A stretch of DNA of 11,329 nucleotides. Origin: Nitrospirota bacterium. Its GTDB lineage: Bacteria; Nitrospirota; Thermodesulfovibrionia; Thermodesulfovibrionales; JdFR-88. How positions within the stretch are numbered: the first letter of the stretch is position 1; each line of letters starts with the position of its first letter. The notes beneath the pieces were generated by a model, which was given only the letters and a program-made list of their open reading frames with translations, did no database searches and was not told where the DNA came from. The stretch spans positions 1 through 11,329 of the forward strand of contig JAKAMR010000080.1 in the NCBI GenBank assembly GCA_021812785.1, in the 5' to 3' direction. The translations under genes were made by a program, and so were the position numbers. Shown here in pieces: positions 2-11,064 of this stretch.

Positions 2-247
2 TTCGGCCTGCAGAGGCTCACCGATGAACAGGCAAGTGACTTCTATGAGATCATTATCGAGCGATACGGAAGGGCAGCCACGGTGATTACCAGCAACCGC
101 GACGTACAAGAATGGATGGCGCTTTTTGACGATCCTATCATTGCCAACTCAGCCCTTGACCGCCTCGCCCACAATGCCCACCAACTGGTCATAGAGGGCG
201 AAAGCTACCGCAAGAGAAAAGAGCCCCGCCGGAGGAAAAAAGCATAG
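2..247 (+). CDS. istB: IS21-family helper ATPase IstB, C-terminal part (5' end outside window)
   Basis: This is the last 81 codons of an IstB-like AAA+ ATPase, the helper that works with the IstA transposase in IS21-family transposition. The reading frame is open from the window edge and stops at TAG 245-247. Visible family hallmarks are the sensor-type segment VITSNRDVQEW, the DDP..ANSALDRLAHNAH stretch, and the closing IEGESYRKRK with its conserved arginine region, followed by a basic tail. The ATP-binding Walker motifs and the istA gene would lie upstream and are not visible. About 50 bases after the stop come the terminal repeats of the element, as expected because istB is the last gene of IS21 elements. 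Nothing in the visible part suggests decay, but whether the whole element is intact cannot be judged. Confidence 0.9.
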   Translation, partial: FGLQRLTDEQASDFYEIIIERYGRAATVITSNRDVQEWMALFDDPIIANSALDRLAHNAHQLVIEGESYRKRKEPRRRKKA

Positions 248-1104: not shown

Positions 1105-1538
1105 ACTTACCCTTGCAGTTGCATGATTCAGGTTCCCGCAAACCATGCAGGCTCACCAGACGCCCAGTCTCCGCTTCTTCAAAATCCTCCGCTGCGAACC
1201 GTCCCCATTCATTGACAAACTTGGCGACCAGGCAGTTATATTGTTTTCGGTGTTGCCAGGAAATATTTCACATAAACTGTTTAGTGGACTATGTCATGGC
1301 GCTCGGATTATTATGAGGCCGGCAATAGGCTTCTCAAAGCTGAAGCCCGAAAGGAGTTTTTTAATTTGAATGGAAAGCGAATATCCGAAGGTCAAGGGAC
1401 CGGATTACAAAATATGCCGGCTTTTTCGTTGAACAATTGAACAGTCGGGCCAAAAAAACTATTTAAAATCGGGAAGTTTGAATTTTAAGCTTGAACAGAA
1501 AAACACAAAAAACAAAAGTTGTGGGAAAATAAAAAACC
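1105..1538. other. Spacer between arfB and tlyA; possible gene remnant on minus strand
   Basis: The plus-strand ORFs here lack recognisable features. On the minus strand the frame 1267 down to 1070 is open for 65 codons without an ATG, and reads protein-like in the middle (NEWGRFAAEDFEEAETGRL); it could be the end of a decayed gene, but I cannot name it. Two weak terminator-like structures follow arfB: GGCTTC/GAAGCC at 1328-1347 with a T-run at 1357-1362, and a short CCGG/CCGG stem before TTTTT at 1422-1426. TTGAACA occurs three times (1429, 1437, 1491). The copy at 1437 followed 17 bases later by TATTTA (1460-1465) could be a weak tlyA promoter. Confidence 0.35.
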
Positions 1539-3032: not shown

Positions 3033-3071
3033 ATGGCTAAGCCAGAAACGGCCACTTTCGTAAAAAAATGA
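3033..3071 (+). CDS. Possible 12-codon leader ORF overlapping the shc start
   Basis: ATG at 3033 opens a frame encoding MAKPETATFVKK and stopping at TGA 3069-3071, so its stop shares ATGA (3068-3071) with the shc start. shc itself has no Shine-Dalgarno sequence: the bases before its ATG are a run of A. This suggests that shc may be translated by reinitiation after the leader. AAGGGG at 3013-3018 is a possible ribosome site, though better spaced for ATG 3028 than for 3033. A short ORF of this kind can arise by chance and no coding bias can be measured. Confidence 0.3.
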   Translation: MAKPETATFVKK

Positions 3072-5059
3072 AAATAAAAAAACGCAGCACTCTTACAGAC
3101 AATTCTGTACTTTTGCACTCCGGGTTCAAGGGGGAGCTGAAACCATTTCCCAAGGCGCCGGACCTGGCCATGGAAGTGGAAAGCGCAATAAAAAAGACGC
3201 AGTCTTTTTTCCTCGCGGACCAGCACGAAGACGGGTACTGGTGGTATGAGCTGGAAGCGAATGCCACCATCACCGCCGAATATCTAATGCTGCTGCATTT
3301 TTTAGGTTTAGAGGACCGCCGCAGGGACAAAATGATAGCCTCTTACCTCCTGGACAAGCAGAGGACGGACGGCACGTGGCCTATACATTGGGGCGGTCCG
3401 GGAGACCTCAACTGCACCATAGAAGCATATTTCGCCCTGAAGCTTGCCGGGTTGGGCGCCGATGCGCCGCCTCTCCGGAGGGCGAGGGAATTCATCCTGG
3501 CGCATGGAGGGGCAGCGGCTTCGAGGGTTTTTACCAGGATATTTCTGGCGCTGTTCGGACAGGTGGGCTGGCGGGACCTGCCTTCGATGCCTGTGGAGAT
3601 AATGCTTTTGCCCCCCAGGTTCCCCTTCAGCGTTTACAGCTTTTCAAGCTGGGCCCGCTCCACATTTGTGCCGCTTTCAATAATCCTGGAGATGAGGCCG
3701 GTGGTGGAACCGCCGGAGAGCGCCCGCATAGATGAGCTTTTCCTCAGGGGCGGCAAGGGCTACAGCCCCGGAAGGGATCGCCTGCTTCACACAGCGATCA
3801 AAAAGTTCTTCTGCATGGTCGACAGGACCATGAAAGGCCTGGAGAGGTTCCCGCTCAGACCACTTAAATCAAGGGGGTTACGGGCTGCCGAAAAGTGGGT
3901 GCTCGAACACCAGGAGGAAACAGGAGACTGGGGCGGCATACAGCCTGCCATGGTGAATTCCATCCTGGCGCTTTCCGCCCTTGGGCACGGCGTGGAAAGC
4001 CCGCCTTTGCGGAAGGGGCTGGAGGCATTGAGCCGCTTTGCAATAGAGCAGGATGACGGGCTGGTGCTCCAGTCCTGCATCTCCCCGGTGTGGGACACCG
4101 CTCTTACGTCGATAGCGCTTGCCACATCAGGGGTCCCCAGGGAGCATCCGGCCCTGGTAAAGGGCTGCCAATGGCTGGAATCAAAGCAGATAGACAGGAA
4201 AGGCGACTGGAGCATAAAAAAGCCGGACCTTGAACCGGGCGGCTGGGCGTTCGAGTTTGAGAACAGCTGGTATCCCGACGTTGATGATACGGCGGTGGTC
4301 CTTATGTTCCTTGGCAACTATGCGCACAAGGAACATACAAAAAAGAAGATAGAAAAGGGCGTAGGATGGGTGCTCGGCATGCAGGGCAGCGACGGCGGCT
4401 GGGGGGCCTTCGATGCCGATAATGATCTTGAGGTCCTGAACCAGATACCTTTTGGCGACCTGGAGGCCATGACAGACCCTTCCACCGCGGACGTTACGGG
4501 GAGGGTTCTGGAGATGCTTGGCATCAACGGGTTCAGCATCTCGGACCAAAGGGTGCAGCGGGCCATTGAGTTCATCCGCAAGACCCAGGAAGAGGACGGC
4601 TCGTTCTGGGGCAGGTGGGGCGTCAATTATATTTACGGCACATGGTCTGTCATCATGGGCCTTGCCTCCATCGGGGAAGACCTTTCAAAACCGTACGTGC
4701 GCAAGGCCGTCAGATGGCTGAAAAATTTCCAGAACCTGGATGGCGGATGGGGAGAGCGCTGCGAGTCCTACGGGGATTGCAGGCTGAAAGGGCACGGCGC
4801 AAGCACACCCTCCCAAACGGCATGGGCCATACTGGCCCTGGTGGCGGCCGGCGAGGCCGGGTCCGTGGAAGCCGAAAGGGGCGTACGCTATCTTCTTGAA
4901 ACGCAGAACGCGGACGGCACCTGGGACGAAGAAGAGTTCACGGGCACGGGTTTCCCCAAATATTTCATGATACGTTATCATAATTACAGGAACTGCTTTC
5001 CGCTCATGGCCCTTGGCAGGTTTTTTGAGGCTAAAAAGAACAGGGCAAAAAAGGTATAG
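3068..5059 (+). CDS. shc: Squalene-hopene cyclase
   Basis: Shc is a monotopic membrane enzyme that cyclises squalene to hopene and diplopterol, the committed step of hopanoid synthesis. The catalytic acid motif DVDDTA begins at D404 (D404, D406, D407), as in classic bacterial cyclases. QW repeats that brace the alpha-barrels are seen at about 52-58 (QHEDGYW), 98-104 (QRTDGTW), 282-288 (QEETGDW), 439-445 (QGSDGGW), 507-514 (QEEDGSFW), 555-561 (QNLDGGW) and 613-619 (QNADGTW). Other conserved stretches are LPPRFPFSVYSFSSWAR near 181-197 and GTGFPKYFMIRYHNYR near 626-641. Length 663 is normal for the family. The DxDDTA form and QxxDGxW density favour squalene over oxidosqualene as substrate. No Shine-Dalgarno is present; the start is supported by the stop at 3038 in the same frame. 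hpnA begins 130 bases downstream, after an unusual repeat leader. Confidence 0.97.
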   Translation: MKIKKRSTLTDNSVLLHSGFKGELKPFPKAPDLAMEVESAIKKTQSFFLADQHEDGYWWYELEANATITAEYLMLLHFLGLEDRRRDKMIASYLLDKQRTDGTWPIHWGGPGDLNCTIEAYFALKLAGLGADAPPLRRAREFILAHGGAAASRVFTRIFLALFGQVGWRDLPSMPVEIMLLPPRFPFSVYSFSSWARSTFVPLSIILEMRPVVEPPESARIDELFLRGGKGYSPGRDRLLHTAIKKFFCMVDRTMKGLERFPLRPLKSRGLRAAEKWVLEHQEETGDWGGIQPAMVNSILALSALGHGVESPPLRKGLEALSRFAIEQDDGLVLQSCISPVWDTALTSIALATSGVPREHPALVKGCQWLESKQIDRKGDWSIKKPDLEPGGWAFEFENSWYPDVDDTAVVLMFLGNYAHKEHTKKKIEKGVGWVLGMQGSDGGWGAFDADNDLEVLNQIPFGDLEAMTDPSTADVTGRVLEMLGINGFSISDQRVQRAIEFIRKTQEEDGSFWGRWGVNYIYGTWSVIMGLASIGEDLSKPYVRKAVRWLKNFQNLDGGWGERCESYGDCRLKGHGASTPSQTAWAILALVAAGEAGSVEAERGVRYLLETQNADGTWDEEEFTGTGFPKYFMIRYHNYRNCFPLMALGRFFEAKKNRAKKV

Positions 5060-5084
5060 ACCGGGGGCCCGTTTTTCTCTTCGT

Positions 5085-5193
5085 ATGAAAGCGATGGTAA
5101 TCTTTATTTTGATGAAAGTTTTGGCAATCTCAATATGAAGGCATCGGTAACAGTTTTATTTTTATTATGAAAGTATCAATAATTTTATTATGA
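5085..5193 (+). promoter_or_regulatory. Relay of three overlapping mini-ORFs leading into hpnA
   Basis: Three short ORFs are linked end to end by ATGA overlaps. ORF1 at 5085-5138 has 17 codons, with an internal in-frame ATG at 5112. ORF2 at 5135-5170 has 11 codons. ORF3 at 5167-5193 has 8 codons and its TGA overlaps the hpnA ATG at 5190. Each handover moves to the next frame by the same step. Neither hpnA nor the mini-ORFs have a good Shine-Dalgarno; the nearest purine run is GGGGG at 5063-5067. Ribosomes could reach hpnA by stepwise termination and reinitiation, or the repeats may be non-functional debris. Translation of the peptides is not shown by sequence alone. Confidence 0.5.
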
Positions 5194-5206
5194 AAGTATT
5201 GGTAAC
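5085..5206 (+). repeat. Five degenerate tandem copies of the hpnA initiation region
   Basis: Copies begin at ATG 5085, 5112, 5135, 5167 and 5190, with periods of 27, 23, 32 and 23 bases. Each reads ATGAARG followed by a degenerate TGGTAA-like core and then a T-rich tail. The fifth copy is the true hpnA start. The last two are the closest: TTTTATTATGAAAGTAT occurs exactly at 5160-5176 and again at 5183-5199. Read from each ATG the copies give MKAMVIF, MKVLAIS, MKASVTV, MKVSIIL and MKVLVTG, all resembling the start of the HpnA Rossmann fold. This looks like repeated tandem duplication of the 5' end followed by drift. Confidence 0.75.
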
Positions 5207-6230
5207 CGGGGCCACCGGTTTTGTAGGGTTCCATGTGGCCGTGAAACTTGCAGGCAGGGGCGATGATGTCCGCGCGCTTGTCCGGGATGAAAAAGCCGCC
5301 CCAGAGCTTTCCAGGCTTGGGGTCGAGATGATAAAAGGCGATGTAAGGGATTTTGGTTCCGTTTCAGGGGCCGCGAGGGGCTGCGAGGAAATCTATCATC
5401 TTGCGGCTGACTACAGGCTGTGGGTGCCGGATCCCGCCCAAATGTATGGGACGAACGTGGCCGGCACGGTCAACGTGATGCGCGCTGCCATGGAGTCCGG
5501 GGCCGGAAGGATAGTCTATACCAGCACCGTGGGAGCGCTTGCCCCATCCAAAAAAAACGGGCCGCCCTCAACAGAAGACACCCCCGTAAGCCTCACGGAC
5601 ATGACCGGCCATTATAAGAGGTCCAAGTTCCTGGCTGAGCGGGAAGTGGAAAAGTTTTTTGCTCAAAAAGGTCTGCCTGTAGTGATCGTAAACCCGTCCA
5701 CTCCCATAGGCGCCATGGACAGGAAACCTACCCCGACCGGGGCGATGATCGTTAGCTTCCTTAACGGGAAGGTGCCGGCATATCTGGACACCGGGCTTAA
5801 TTTCGTGAACGTTGAGGACGTGGCGGAGGGGCATCTGCTGGCCGCGCGCTACGGTAAGCCCGGCGGAAAATACATCCTGGGCGGACATAACATGACGCTT
5901 AAGGATTTTTACCTGGAGCTCTCCGCGGTTTCGGGTATAAAGGCCCCCTCCGTAAAACTTCCTTACCTGCCCGTGCTTGCCGCCGCATACGTGAGCGAAG
6001 GTTTTTCACGGTTTTTCCTTTTTGGGAAAAAGCCCCCCGCCATACCCCTTACGGGGGTGAAGATGGCCGGGAAATACATGTTTTATGATTCCGCCAAGGC
6101 GCAAAGAGAGCTCGGGATGCCGGTTACGCCGGTAAGAGAGGCGGTCCGGCAGGCTGCGGAATGGTTTGCCGCGAATGGCTACGTGAGCTCAGGAAAGACA
6201 AGAAAGATAGGAGCAGCAATTTGCATATGA
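5190..6230 (+). CDS. hpnA: Hopanoid-associated NAD-dependent epimerase/reductase HpnA
   Basis: HpnA is an extended short-chain dehydrogenase/reductase found in hopanoid gene clusters; a sugar epimerase or reductase role on the hopanoid side chain is proposed, but its exact reaction is not settled. The Rossmann nucleotide loop GATGFVG lies at residues 7-13. D51-V52 (KGDVRD) and LAADYRLW near 71-78 are typical of the family. The active-site serine/threonine is in TSTVG (111-115), and the catalytic pair is Y142 and K146 (HYKRSK). NPSTPIGAMDRKPTPTG at 168-184 is a segment I associate with HpnA-type proteins. At 346 residues it is near full length. The start is fixed by the first Rossmann strand MKVLVTG. 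There is no Shine-Dalgarno, and the upstream region carries the repeated initiation sites. Its stop overlaps the next gene by ATGA at 6227-6230, so translation coupling to the DUF116 gene is likely. Confidence 0.93.
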   Translation: MKVLVTGATGFVGFHVAVKLAGRGDDVRALVRDEKAAPELSRLGVEMIKGDVRDFGSVSGAARGCEEIYHLAADYRLWVPDPAQMYGTNVAGTVNVMRAAMESGAGRIVYTSTVGALAPSKKNGPPSTEDTPVSLTDMTGHYKRSKFLAEREVEKFFAQKGLPVVIVNPSTPIGAMDRKPTPTGAMIVSFLNGKVPAYLDTGLNFVNVEDVAEGHLLAARYGKPGGKYILGGHNMTLKDFYLELSAVSGIKAPSVKLPYLPVLAAAYVSEGFSRFFLFGKKPPAIPLTGVKMAGKYMFYDSAKAQRELGMPVTPVREAVRQAAEWFAANGYVSSGKTRKIGAAICI

Positions 6231-7021
6231 AAGACAGAAAGCTCGGAGACGAATGGTCCGGGTGGGACGGCGAACTGGACCAGCGGGATGTAAAAGTGGA
6301 CGAGGCCCCGCGGACTTTCATCGTGTTGGCCGTAGTGATGATAATACTGTTTGTGGTCCTGTCCTTTATAGGGCTGTATATGATCCAGCCCAGGCTTGCA
6401 CAGTTCAACCCGTCTGCACCGGGATTCGTGGAGACCCTGCTGATAGCTGCCGCTATTGCCTTTACCCTGGCCGGCAGCGTCTGGTGTTTTGCGCTTGCGA
6501 GGTGGAGAAAGCCGATCTTCCCCAGTAAATGGGTGGAGAAGTACGTGCTTTTCCTCCTGCCTAAAACCGTGTGGCTGGGCTCCAAGCTGGGCATCAGCAG
6601 GGACAGGGTGGGCAATTCGTTCATCAAGGCCCATAACAGCCTGATAAGGTCATATGCCGGGAAGTTCAGCCCCGAAAGGCCGCTTATACTTCTGCCCCGC
6701 TGCCTGAAGGCGGAAGTGAGGAAGGAGATACTCTCCATCGCGGGCGAAGGCCTGTTCAAGGTCGTCACCGCAGTGGGGGGGGAGGAGGCAAGGAGGGCAA
6801 TAGAGGAATACAGGCCCACCTTCATTCTTGCCGTGGCCTGTGAGAGGGACCTTATGAGCGGCATGAAGGACGTGGCGGAGAAGGTGCCCGTGCTGGCTAT
6901 CCCGAACGTGCGGCCGGAAGGGCCCTGCAAGAATACCAGCGTGCAGATGGACGAGTTCAGGGAAGCTGTAATATTCATCAAGGAGGAGCTGAGGAAGATC
7001 TCAGAAAACAGCGGCCATTAA
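6227..7021 (+). CDS. Membrane-anchored DUF116 family protein in hopanoid operon
   Basis: This protein has 264 residues. Two membrane segments lie at about 30-52 and 68-90, after a short charged N-terminus. The cytosolic part has the DUF116 pattern: ILLPRCLKAE (C159), TAVGGEEARRAIEEYRP, LAVACERDLMSG (C205) and IPNVRPEGPCKNTSV (C234). Three cysteines in this arrangement could hold a metal or Fe-S centre, but the family's reaction is unknown to me. The additional clustered cysteines (CxxC type) that I remember in many DUF116 proteins after the first motif are absent here. The start at 6227 is chosen over earlier codons in the same frame because it gives the ATGA overlap with hpnA and has GGAG about 11 bases upstream. 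hpnH follows within 5 bases, so a role in hopanoid side-chain chemistry is inferred from position only. Confidence 0.85.
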   Translation: MKDRKLGDEWSGWDGELDQRDVKVDEAPRTFIVLAVVMIILFVVLSFIGLYMIQPRLAQFNPSAPGFVETLLIAAAIAFTLAGSVWCFALARWRKPIFPSKWVEKYVLFLLPKTVWLGSKLGISRDRVGNSFIKAHNSLIRSYAGKFSPERPLILLPRCLKAEVRKEILSIAGEGLFKVVTAVGGEEARRAIEEYRPTFILAVACERDLMSGMKDVAEKVPVLAIPNVRPEGPCKNTSVQMDEFREAVIFIKEELRKISENSGH

Positions 7022-7025
7022 AATC

Positions 7026-8066
7026 GTGGAAAATAAAAAAAACAAAACAAAAAATAAAACGCGTTTTCAACCAGGGCTTTACAAGACCCTTACATGGCAT
7101 TTCATAAAAAACACCCTTACGGGGAAAAAGCGGTTCCCTCTTGTGCTGATGCTTGAGCCGACCCACCGCTGCAACTTGGCTTGCATGGGATGCGACAGGA
7201 TAAGAACGGCGGCGGAGGGCGACCTGCCTGTGTCCGCATGCCTGGAGGCCGCAAGGGAATGCGGGGCCCCGGTGGTCGCGATAACCGGCGGCGAGCCCAT
7301 GATCTATAAGTACTTGCAGCCGCTTGTTAAAGGCCTGCTCAGTGAAGGCAAGTACATATACCTCTGCACAAACGGGGTGCTCGCGCAGGAATTCATAGAA
7401 AGTTTCACCCCACACCCCGCGCTTACCCTCAATTTCCATCTGGACGGACTGGACACCACGCATGACAAGATCACAGGTCTGCCCGGTTCCTTCAACAAGG
7501 CGGTGGAGTCCATACGGAAGGCAAAGGCAAAGGGGTTCAGGGTGAGCACGAATACCACCGTTTATAAGGCGTCCGACCCCGGAGAGCTTGAGGGTCTTTT
7601 TGATCTCCTTTATTCTTCCAGTGTGGACGGGATGCTCATTTCCCCGGCCTTCGCCTATCAGAGTGTTGAGGACAACATATTTTTCAACCGTGGGGAGATA
7701 AACGAGAAATTCACCCGGATGTCGGGTTTCCTTAAAAAGTACCCGCTCATAAACACCCCCACATACATGGATTTCCTGTGCGGCAGGAGGCAGATGCGCT
7801 GCACCCCATGGGGCAATCCCACTTATAATCCGCTTGGGTGGAAGTCGCCGTGCTACCTGGTTACGGACAGTTATTTCCCCTCCTATGCCCGCATGATGAA
7901 GGAGACCAATTGGAGCCTCTATGAGGATGGGAAAGACCCCCGCTGCGCAAACTGCATGGTGCACGGGGGGTACGAGACCACGGTCATGAGGATGGCCTTC
8001 ACCAACCCGCTTGAAGGGCTGAGGCTGGCCTTCTGGAATTTCGGCTCCAACAACAAAAAACGCTGA
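7026..8066 (+). CDS. hpnH: Radical SAM adenosylhopane synthase HpnH
   Basis: HpnH uses a [4Fe-4S] cluster and SAM to add a 5'-deoxyadenosyl group to hopene, giving adenosylhopane, the precursor of all C35 hopanoids. The radical SAM motif CNLACMGC supplies C49, C53 and C56. AITGGEPMIY at 85-94 is the GGE SAM-binding segment. LCTNG contains C114, likely the family cysteine that quenches the product radical. HLDGLDTTHDKITG near 137-150 and SPAFAYQSVEDN are typical of HpnH. The C-terminal cysteine-bearing region (GRRQMRCTPWGNP, SPCYLVTD, CANCMVHGG) matches the DUF3463 tail of the family. Usual members have CxGCGKI after the motif, whereas this one has CMGCDRI. The GTG start gives the expected N-terminal length, but no good ribosome site is visible. 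A single TGA and three codons separate it from the next gene, which is in the same frame. Confidence 0.95.
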   Translation: MENKKNKTKNKTRFQPGLYKTLTWHFIKNTLTGKKRFPLVLMLEPTHRCNLACMGCDRIRTAAEGDLPVSACLEAARECGAPVVAITGGEPMIYKYLQPLVKGLLSEGKYIYLCTNGVLAQEFIESFTPHPALTLNFHLDGLDTTHDKITGLPGSFNKAVESIRKAKAKGFRVSTNTTVYKASDPGELEGLFDLLYSSSVDGMLISPAFAYQSVEDNIFFNRGEINEKFTRMSGFLKKYPLINTPTYMDFLCGRRQMRCTPWGNPTYNPLGWKSPCYLVTDSYFPSYARMMKETNWSLYEDGKDPRCANCMVHGGYETTVMRMAFTNPLEGLRLAFWNFGSNNKKR

Positions 8067-9861: not shown

Positions 9862-11064
9862 ATGCGCACGGTTTCGGAAGCACTTTATATAGCGTGTTTC
9901 ATTCTAGCCGCCGGAGGCGGGCTTTATACCCTTTTTTCCATTTTTTGCGTCCTAATGGCCGGGGTAAACCATAAGTCCTCTGAATCGTCTCCTGAACGGG
10001 GTTTTCCCCCTGTCTCTATTTTAAAGCCCCTGCGGGGCGCTGACTACCGCCTCAAGGAGAACCTGGCCGGCTTCTGCCGCCAGGACTATCCGGATTACGA
10101 AGTCCTGCTTGGGTTAAGGAGCACGAAAGACGGCGCTTACGGCGCTGCCCTGGAAATAGAGCGGATGTTCCCGGAGAAGGTGCGGCTGGTAGTTGGACAT
10201 GGGGACCTGGGGGCCAACCGGAAGGTCTCTAACCTTTACCGGCTTTCGCAAAGCGCAAAACATGATCTTGTTGCGGTAAGCGACAGTGATATGAAGGTGG
10301 ATGGTGGCTACCTTAAAACGATCGTCTCCGAGTACATGGAAAATGAGAATACCGGCCTCGTAACATCCCTCTACAGGATAACGGAACCTGTTTCCGTGGG
10401 CGCGGCTTTTGAGTCCCTCAGCATAGCCCTGGATTTTATCCCGTCCGTGCTCGTGGCGAAGGTGGTTGAGCGCAAAATATCTTTTGGTCTCGGGGCATCC
10501 ATGCTTTTTTCAAGGGAAAGGTTTGAGGAGACGGGAGGGTTCAGGGCCATAGCGGATCACCTTGCAGATGATTACCAGGTGGGGCACAGGCTATACGGGA
10601 AGGGATATGAAGTGGTCCTTTCAAAGTACGTAATGGAGGATATGGAAGGCCCAATGCGGTTTTTGGACTACCTGCTGCACCAGTTGAGATGGGCAAGGAC
10701 GTACAGGGCTTCAAGGCCCAAGGGCTATATAGGCTATGGGATAACCCATTTTTTTGCCTACTGCTTTTTTCTCTCTGTCTTTTGGCCGGGAGCACTGACC
10801 TTTTCGGCCCTTGCCCTTTCGTTTTTTCTGCGTGCCCTGGGCGGGTTTGCCGTAAACAGGCGGTTCATTGGCCGGACGGGATGGGGCCGGTGGCTTTTTC
10901 TTCTGCCAGCGAAGGACATGCTGTCTTTTGGCATCTGGCTTTTGAGTTTTGCCGGCAGGCAGGTGGCATGGAGGGGGGACATTTACAGGGTCACCAGAAC
11001 CGGGGAGTTGCGCAAAATGGATAGCGAGCGTAACCCGGAGGGCAAGCGAGGCGAATCCGGTTAA
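9862..11064 (+). CDS. hpnI: Hopanoid biosynthesis family 2 glycosyltransferase HpnI
   Basis: HpnI is a membrane glycosyltransferase related to ceramide glucosyltransferase; in characterised systems it adds N-acetylglucosamine from UDP-GlcNAc to bacteriohopanetetrol, after which HpnK and HpnJ make the cyclitol ether. Membrane segments are at about 8-33, 296-322 and 346-366. Catalytic elements are PVSILKPLRGAD (50-61), the DxD-type SDSD (140-143), FGLGASMLFSRE (208-219), ADDYQVGHRL with the acceptor Asp pair D236/D237, and HQLRWARTYR carrying the QLRW box at 274-277. The final 20 residues are polar (SERNPEGKRGESG) and extend past the fold. Neither hpnJ nor hpnK is present in the window, so the end product cannot be deduced. 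There is no clear ribosome site. A weak promoter (TTGCTA 9823-9828, TAAAGT 9845-9850) would give an almost leaderless mRNA. Confidence 0.92.
   Translation: MRTVSEALYIACFILAAGGGLYTLFSIFCVLMAGVNHKSSESSPERGFPPVSILKPLRGADYRLKENLAGFCRQDYPDYEVLLGLRSTKDGAYGAALEIERMFPEKVRLVVGHGDLGANRKVSNLYRLSQSAKHDLVAVSDSDMKVDGGYLKTIVSEYMENENTGLVTSLYRITEPVSVGAAFESLSIALDFIPSVLVAKVVERKISFGLGASMLFSRERFEETGGFRAIADHLADDYQVGHRLYGKGYEVVLSKYVMEDMEGPMRFLDYLLHQLRWARTYRASRPKGYIGYGITHFFAYCFFLSVFWPGALTFSALALSFFLRALGGFAVNRRFIGRTGWGRWLFLLPAKDMLSFGIWLLSFAGRQVAWRGDIYRVTRTGELRKMDSERNPEGKRGESG

Follow-up and report, generated by a model that had tools for sequence, protein, structure and literature searches.

Duplicated hpnA starts form a genus-limited array between shc and hpnA in a Nitrospirota bacterium, most likely by stepwise duplication

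Introduction

Stop/start overlaps between neighbouring genes are very common. The separation of an overlapped pair without silencing of the second gene is, in our judgement, rarely visible. The shc and hpnA genes of a Nitrospirota bacterium raise this question, as here they are separated by a spacer of 130 nt (32% G+C) that, as read from the sequence, holds four diverged copies of the hpnA start, the fifth being hpnA itself. How did the array arise, and can its short frames carry coupling across the gap? The system offers a concrete test of the latter. Across related genera, the two genes overlap directly, are bridged by a detached tail ORF or are separated by an increasing number of copied starts, and the series shows a tightly linked pair drifting apart. 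The array is real and limited to one genus. Stepwise duplication with frame-tolerant decay appears to be its most likely origin, and a functional relay of ribosomes along it is a testable possibility. For the wording searched (duplicated starts, minicistrons), no description of such an array was found in the open-licence full texts searched.

Results

The array in the window

The window is the whole stretch of DNA analysed, 11,329 nucleotides. The features of the locus are listed in Table 1, together with the junctions of the related genus g3. A profile search aligns position 1 of TIGR03466 to residue 1 of hpnA, and copy 5, at 5190, is likely the working start.

Table 1. Parts of the shc–hpnA locus in the window and the shc–hpnA junctions of genus g3 (sequences L014, L015 and L016)
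Sequence	Feature	Positions	Strand	Remarks
Window	shc, squalene-hopene cyclase	3068–5059	+	TIGR01507, 817.2 bits (cutoff 431.1); upstream partner; stop TAG 5057–5059
Window	gap, shc stop to copy 1	5060–5084	+	GGGGG, then a pyrimidine-rich stretch; like the shc–hpnA junction of genus g3
Window	mini-ORF 1	5085–5138	+	17 codons, MKAMVIFILMKVLAISI; contains copies 1 (5085) and 2 (5112); TGA overlaps ATG 5135
Window	mini-ORF 2	5135–5170	+	11 codons, MKASVTVLFLL; copy 3; TGA overlaps ATG 5167
Window	mini-ORF 3	5167–5193	+	8 codons, MKVSIILL; copy 4; TGA overlaps hpnA ATG
Window	hpnA, hopanoid-associated sugar epimerase	5190–6230	+	copy 5; TIGR03466, 434.7 bits (cutoff 367.65)
L014	g3 junction	1481–1503		sequence reading
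L015	g3 junction		reverse	sequence reading
L016	g3 junction	101–120		sequence reading

An earlier, sequence-only reading had described ATG codons at 5085, 5112, 5135, 5167 and 5190, each followed by a similar core. Direct reading yields the same five codons and one more in-frame ATG at 5094. The similar core is seen in general, the exception being the copy at 5167, where the TGG core is lost (ATGAAAGTATCAATAAT). The perfect 17-base repeat noted in the same reading, TTTTATTATGAAAGTAT, is indeed exact and begins at 5160 and 5183 (5160–5176 is identical to 5183–5199). The three mini-ORFs, with the lengths given earlier, are present as well, and the TGA of each lies inside the next ATGA, the last ATGA being the hpnA start. 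The reading had also found no Shine-Dalgarno sequence for hpnA, and we see none before 5190; moreover, none of GGAG, GAGG and AGGA is found by sequence reading shortly before 5085, 5112, 5135, 5167 or 5190.

Copies 1 to 4 agree with the initial 16 nt of hpnA at 13, 14, 13 and 13 positions, respectively, and the successive spacings between the five copies are 27, 23, 32 and 23 nt. ATGAARG stands four times in the spacer, and none of 5000 dinucleotide shuffles has as many. For similarity to the hpnA start, the four best matches sum to 53, against a maximum of 42 among 5000 shuffles, and the longest exact repeat is 17 bases, the maximum among 2000 shuffles being 13. The units stand head-to-tail and are alike beyond chance, as tandem duplications are. 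The array goes unreported by Tandem Repeats Finder, presumably owing to the divergence of the copies and their uneven spacing.

Confinement to the locus

The degenerate pattern ATGAARGYNNYRGYAAY has five exact matches in four whole genomes of the genus (76–100% complete), every one at hpnA. Given this confinement of the exact pattern to one locus in the four genomes, a dispersed element was rejected. In a sample of 358,608 bases of the window genome, four upstream copies are found at hpnA alone among 291 starts; gene 1539, whose TTG start lies in a poly-A stretch, has two upstream matches of 12/16, and three genes have one each. A chain of three links occurs in one of the 85 tandem pairs of the sample, namely shc–hpnA, and in none of the other 84. 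The gene caller used for the sample was a simple script, and these control counts are rough because its starts are approximate.

The shc–hpnA distance in related genomes

The hpnA gene was matched at E <= 1e-60 in 27 of the 176 genomes of the order, and shc is directly upstream in all 27. This survey takes as the hpnA start the position that aligns with residue 1 of the window protein. Between the shc stop and this start, 14 genomes have a distance of −4 and three of −1, so that 17 of the 27 pairs overlap; single genomes show +3, +6 and +12, and all three genomes of genus g3 have 14–17 nt. Long spacers (49, 77, 108 and 130 nt) are found only in the four genomes of genus g1, to which the window belongs. 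Its relatives there are Nitrospirae metagenome-assembled genomes, L002, L003 and L004, evidently the same as L011, L012 and L013, as the spacers are equal. In L004 the residue-aligned distance is 61 nt and the actual ATG stands at 49.

One further genome of the class has shc and hpnA at −1. Outside the class, 19 stretches were examined, from a fraction of the many hpnA-bearing genomes of the phylum, and shc was found in none of them within about 450–720 nt before hpnA. With 17 of the 27 order genomes and the one class genome showing it, the overlapping pair appears to be the ancestral state. The window pair itself has neither the 4-nt nor the 1-nt overlap, being 130 nt apart; the only overlap with hpnA is that of mini-ORF 3. 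By hpnA identity the nearest other genus is g3 (69–72%), and on this ground we take it to be the probable sister genus of g1.

The junction in genus g3

In each of the three g3 genomes, an ATG immediately follows the shc stop and opens a frame of five to six codons (MGVFFR, MGVFFV, MGFYS), whose TGA overlaps the ATG or TTG of hpnA (ATGA or TTGA; read by eye). This mini-ORF shares the frame of shc, as would be expected if shc formerly extended to a 4-nt overlap and then acquired an earlier stop. The 3-nt difference in length between the three junctions preserves the frame. For comparison, four of the 32 tandem pairs with gaps of 8–40 nt in the window genome sample are loosely bridged, one of them from an ATG.

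Comparison of the copies within genus g1

Alignment of the related spacers and counting of their repeat units, as the earlier reading had proposed, gave about two, three, three (perhaps four) and five copies for the spacers of 49, 77, 108 and 130 nt, respectively. Hence the number of units, as counted in these alignments, appears to differ between related genomes, again as in tandem duplications. The proposal of a slippage-prone tuner with a variable copy number applies here to differences between species. There is good support for the proposal that the units are relics of duplicated 5' ends: the position of copy 1 is homologous to the hpnA start in g3, and the four species differ in copy number.

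The distance from the shc stop to copy 1 is 25 nt in the window, 26 in L002 and 23 in L004. Window copy 1 agrees with L002 copy 1 at 23 of 27 positions, and at 18 of 27 both with L004 copy 1 and with the hpnA start of L015 from g3. The L015 start is matched at 17 of 27 positions by L004 copy 1, at 14 by L002 copy 1 and at 10–16 by the later copies. The leader ttcttcgt/ttcttcgc is common to window copy 1, L004 copy 1 and the L015 hpnA start, the window and L015 having the same form, ttcttcgt. Alignments of the post-stop segment to the g3 junctions clearly beat shuffles for L004 and the window; for the latter, the number of 2000 shuffles reaching the score is 6 against L015, 12 against L014 and 6 against L016. 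They are weak for L002 (161, 73 and 46 of 2000), and L003 has no match to L015 (1785 of 2000) and a modest one to L014 and L016 (32 and 33 of 2000). Based on the leader, the copy-1 matches and these alignments, copy 1 is therefore most likely the old start, which is clear for the window and L004, and a later copy serves as the start today.

The spacer alignments of the window with L002 and with L004 are each reached by none of 1000 shuffles. With L002, the alignment runs unbroken through copies 1 and 2 (score 76, the maximum among 1000 shuffles being 44). Further, copy 2 is identical at 20 of 27 positions between L002 and L003. Therefore some of the duplications are older than these species. 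The alignment of L003 with the window is marginal (3 of 1000 shuffles reach it), that of L002 with L004 is weak (40 of 1000), and L003 copy 1 is doubtful, with at most 12 of 27 positions matching any other unit. In L004, copy 2 resembles copy 1 little (15 of 27) because of a 4-codon insert at the real start. Conservation does not extend to single upstream ATGs, as copy 1 has ACG in L002 and copy 3 has ATT in L003.

The 11 closest HpnA proteins, among the 120 listed of 1424 found, begin with MK or MR followed by (V/A)LVTG, the one similar to L004 beginning with MKAKTKKLVTG. None of these 11 carries an N-terminal fusion produced by in-frame duplication, and this candidate was rejected. One protein, P0001, is 98% identical and is known as protein only.

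Proposed origin of the array

Based on these comparisons, the 5' end of hpnA was probably duplicated in tandem step by step, the upstream copies decaying and the relay of mini-ORFs being mainly a by-product. Ancestrally, the stop of shc would have overlapped the start of hpnA directly. The frame relations suggest that the end of shc moved about 20 nt earlier in the common ancestor of g1 and g3, and this may have been an insertion rather than a shortening of shc. The segment from the pyrimidine-rich leader to approximately codon 6 of hpnA would then have been duplicated several times in g1, by slippage or unequal recombination. The furthest-downstream copy would have stayed attached to the body of the gene as the working start, with the upstream copies decaying through point changes and small indels.

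The reading frame could act as a filter. A duplication whose length is 2 mod 3 would let the upstream frame end within the next start and leave hpnA undisturbed; with any other length, the upstream frame may overrun hpnA in a different phase, and such duplications may be eliminated. Three of the four window spacings are 2 mod 3, too few to prove such a filter. The visible relay would be mainly a by-product because the duplicated start begins with ATGA and is then filtered by frame; as every copy begins with ATGA, the links come partly free.

Replication slippage yields short tandem duplications. Like these, the array consists of imperfect head-to-tail units, their number differs between species, and the last pair shares an exact 17-mer. 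Unlike them, the window unit spans a gene start, the spacings are uneven (23–32 nt), and one locus only is involved.

Possible relay of ribosomes to hpnA

A reading that concerns function, and can be combined with an origin by duplication, is that of a working relay, akin to the stepwise reinitiation proposed in the earlier reading. Ribosomes entering at an upstream ATG would terminate in the next ATGA, reinitiate and be passed on to hpnA, so that coupling would survive the longer spacer, as in a natural chain of minicistrons. We consider this possible but unlikely. In its favour, an ATG mini-ORF ends at the hpnA start in all four g1 species (ATGA in the window and L004, TAATG in L003, and TAAgATG, with a 1-nt gap, in L002), and such a mini-ORF is present in only seven of the 84 other tandem pairs of the genome sample, with gaps of 40–250 nt. 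The short g3 frame starting directly at the shc stop and ending at ATGA or TTGA points in the same direction, and the relay is more credible there because entry is immediate. The chain stays closed despite the ATGs lost in L002 and L003. Under random frames, closure without overrun has a probability of 0.20 for the window, 0.51 for L002, 0.22 for L003 and 0.32 for L004; the product for independent species, about 0.007, overstates the significance because the four share ancestry.

However, a single link arises in 21% of plain shuffles of the window spacer and in 5%, 13% and 5% of those for L002, L003 and L004; at least three links are seen in 0.06% of the window shuffles. Moreover, the L002 link counts only after a 1-nt gap is allowed, which was post hoc, and L002 has no links under the first rule. 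That rule required the stop to touch or overlap the start; the chain survey then allowed a gap of up to 3 nt, and the random-frame and pair surveys a gap of up to 1 nt, the rule having been widened after L002 was seen. None of the upstream ATGs in the four g1 species overruns hpnA, and the comparison of 0 of 9 at hpnA with 20 of 121 in controls is based on too few cases to tell. The closed frames hint at selection on frame; given ATGA-bearing repeats, they would be only modestly unlikely by chance.

Entry from shc is another difficulty, as is the lack of a Shine-Dalgarno sequence at any window link. The available part of a reporter study (PMC10666635) reports that coupling falls steeply with distance in native pairs of Haloferax volcanii and E. 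coli, being nearly gone at 22–23 nt in the former and cut by 80–90% or abolished at 38 nt in the latter. The distance from the shc stop to the first ATG is 25 nt in the window, 35 in L002, 55 in L003 and 23 in L004, where by that account coupling is largely lost. The internal links would satisfy the reported coupling distance, and entry from shc (23–55 nt) would be poor. On the other hand, the same part of the study gives the last 15 nt of the upstream gene as enough for coupling in two E. coli pairs, and such a short upstream stretch is consistent with a relay.

An extended form, doubtful as well and if anything slightly more so, is a ribosome conveyor. Once the two genes had moved apart, the copied ATGA starts would have been kept in frame so as to hand ribosomes from stop to start along several minicistrons to hpnA, their number setting the HpnA:Shc ratio, with the g3 ORF as the simplest stage.

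RNA structure and other functional readings

As far as the available part of a review (PMC12548453) goes, ribosome scanning and RNA unfolding are both live models of coupling. Applied to the window, the second model would have a ribosome on shc melt a long-range stem between the first bases after shc and hpnA codons 6–11, which otherwise buries the hpnA start of the window. The predicted fold from the end of shc to hpnA +36 has a z-score of −3.34, with none of 200 shuffles equally stable (a slightly shorter piece has −2.68, with 2 of 200); 9.99 pairs are expected between the first 15 nt after shc and hpnA +12 to +36, and the start region is 15% unpaired. However, the expected pairs in relatives are 0.27 for L002, 0.53 for L003, 0.07 for L004, 1.78 for L014 and 1.99 for L015, and the respective z-scores are −0.44, −0.24, +1.74, −1.22 and −1.27, so we regard this reading as improbable. 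The predicted stem, which is GC-rich and long-range, lies within 5060–5220 and is absent from the five relatives folded; we treat it as a predicted feature of the window genome only.

An open, unstructured AT-rich start was also considered as a general reason for the spacer and was rejected: in the window, about 85% of 293 starts are less structured than that of hpnA, the corresponding values being 41% for L002, 76% for L003 and 17% for L004.

An attenuation leader, a promoter or a protein-binding array is a very improbable reading. It could draw on the several short hydrophobic peptides, the AT-rich repeats and one terminator-like site on the other strand (5070–5058, 0.3 expected). But the window has no Rfam match at gathering scores, the one promoter-like site compares with 1.1 expected and is on the other strand, the spacing is irregular, the motif has no dispersed copies, and the peptides differ between species (read by eye). 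Finally, chance resemblance in AT-rich sequence, which might appeal to MK starts being common and ATGA being automatic after ATG-AAA, has a practically negligible probability, as none of 5000 shuffles reaches the repeat scores and the window shares the similarity with L002 and L004.

Relation to known systems

In a bicistronic design, the leader ORF has its own Shine-Dalgarno sequence and contains that of the gene. Neither is present in the window. A short ORF overlapping the gene start, as in a minicistron, is found in the window, L003 and L004, with a 1-nt gap in L002. Bicistronic designs of this kind are used in expression vectors (PMC5995908). The likeness is in a short leader ORF before a gene, with its stop at the gene start; the difference is that the window array is natural, consists of several such ORFs in series, lacks Shine-Dalgarno sequences, and has mini-ORFs predicted from sequence.

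Another close parallel is that of stop/start-overlap pairs with termination-reinitiation, as presented in the available parts of PMC6728339 and PMC10666635. Such pairs have ATGA or TAATG junctions between co-directed genes, like the overlapping shc–hpnA pairs in the order. Unlike them, the window overlaps join three short frames copied from the start of the downstream gene itself, after a gap of 25 nt.

Other junctions in the same genome

Downstream of the array, the TGA of hpnA overlaps the ATG of the next gene predicted by the gene caller (ATGA, 6227–6230), and the junction looks like a direct −4 overlap. This gene (6227–7021) lies between hpnA and hpnH (7026–8066); a longer ORF, 6161–7021, has no NCBIfam match at E 0.001. 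Downstream of hpnH, an HpnI-like glycosyltransferase (9862–11064) scores 294.6 bits, slightly below the NCBIfam cutoff of 310. Elsewhere in the genome, gaps with a bridging mini-ORF are seen in L041 and L053 (reverse strand), and two-link chains in L043 (reverse strand) and L037, the L037 gap carrying repeated segments.
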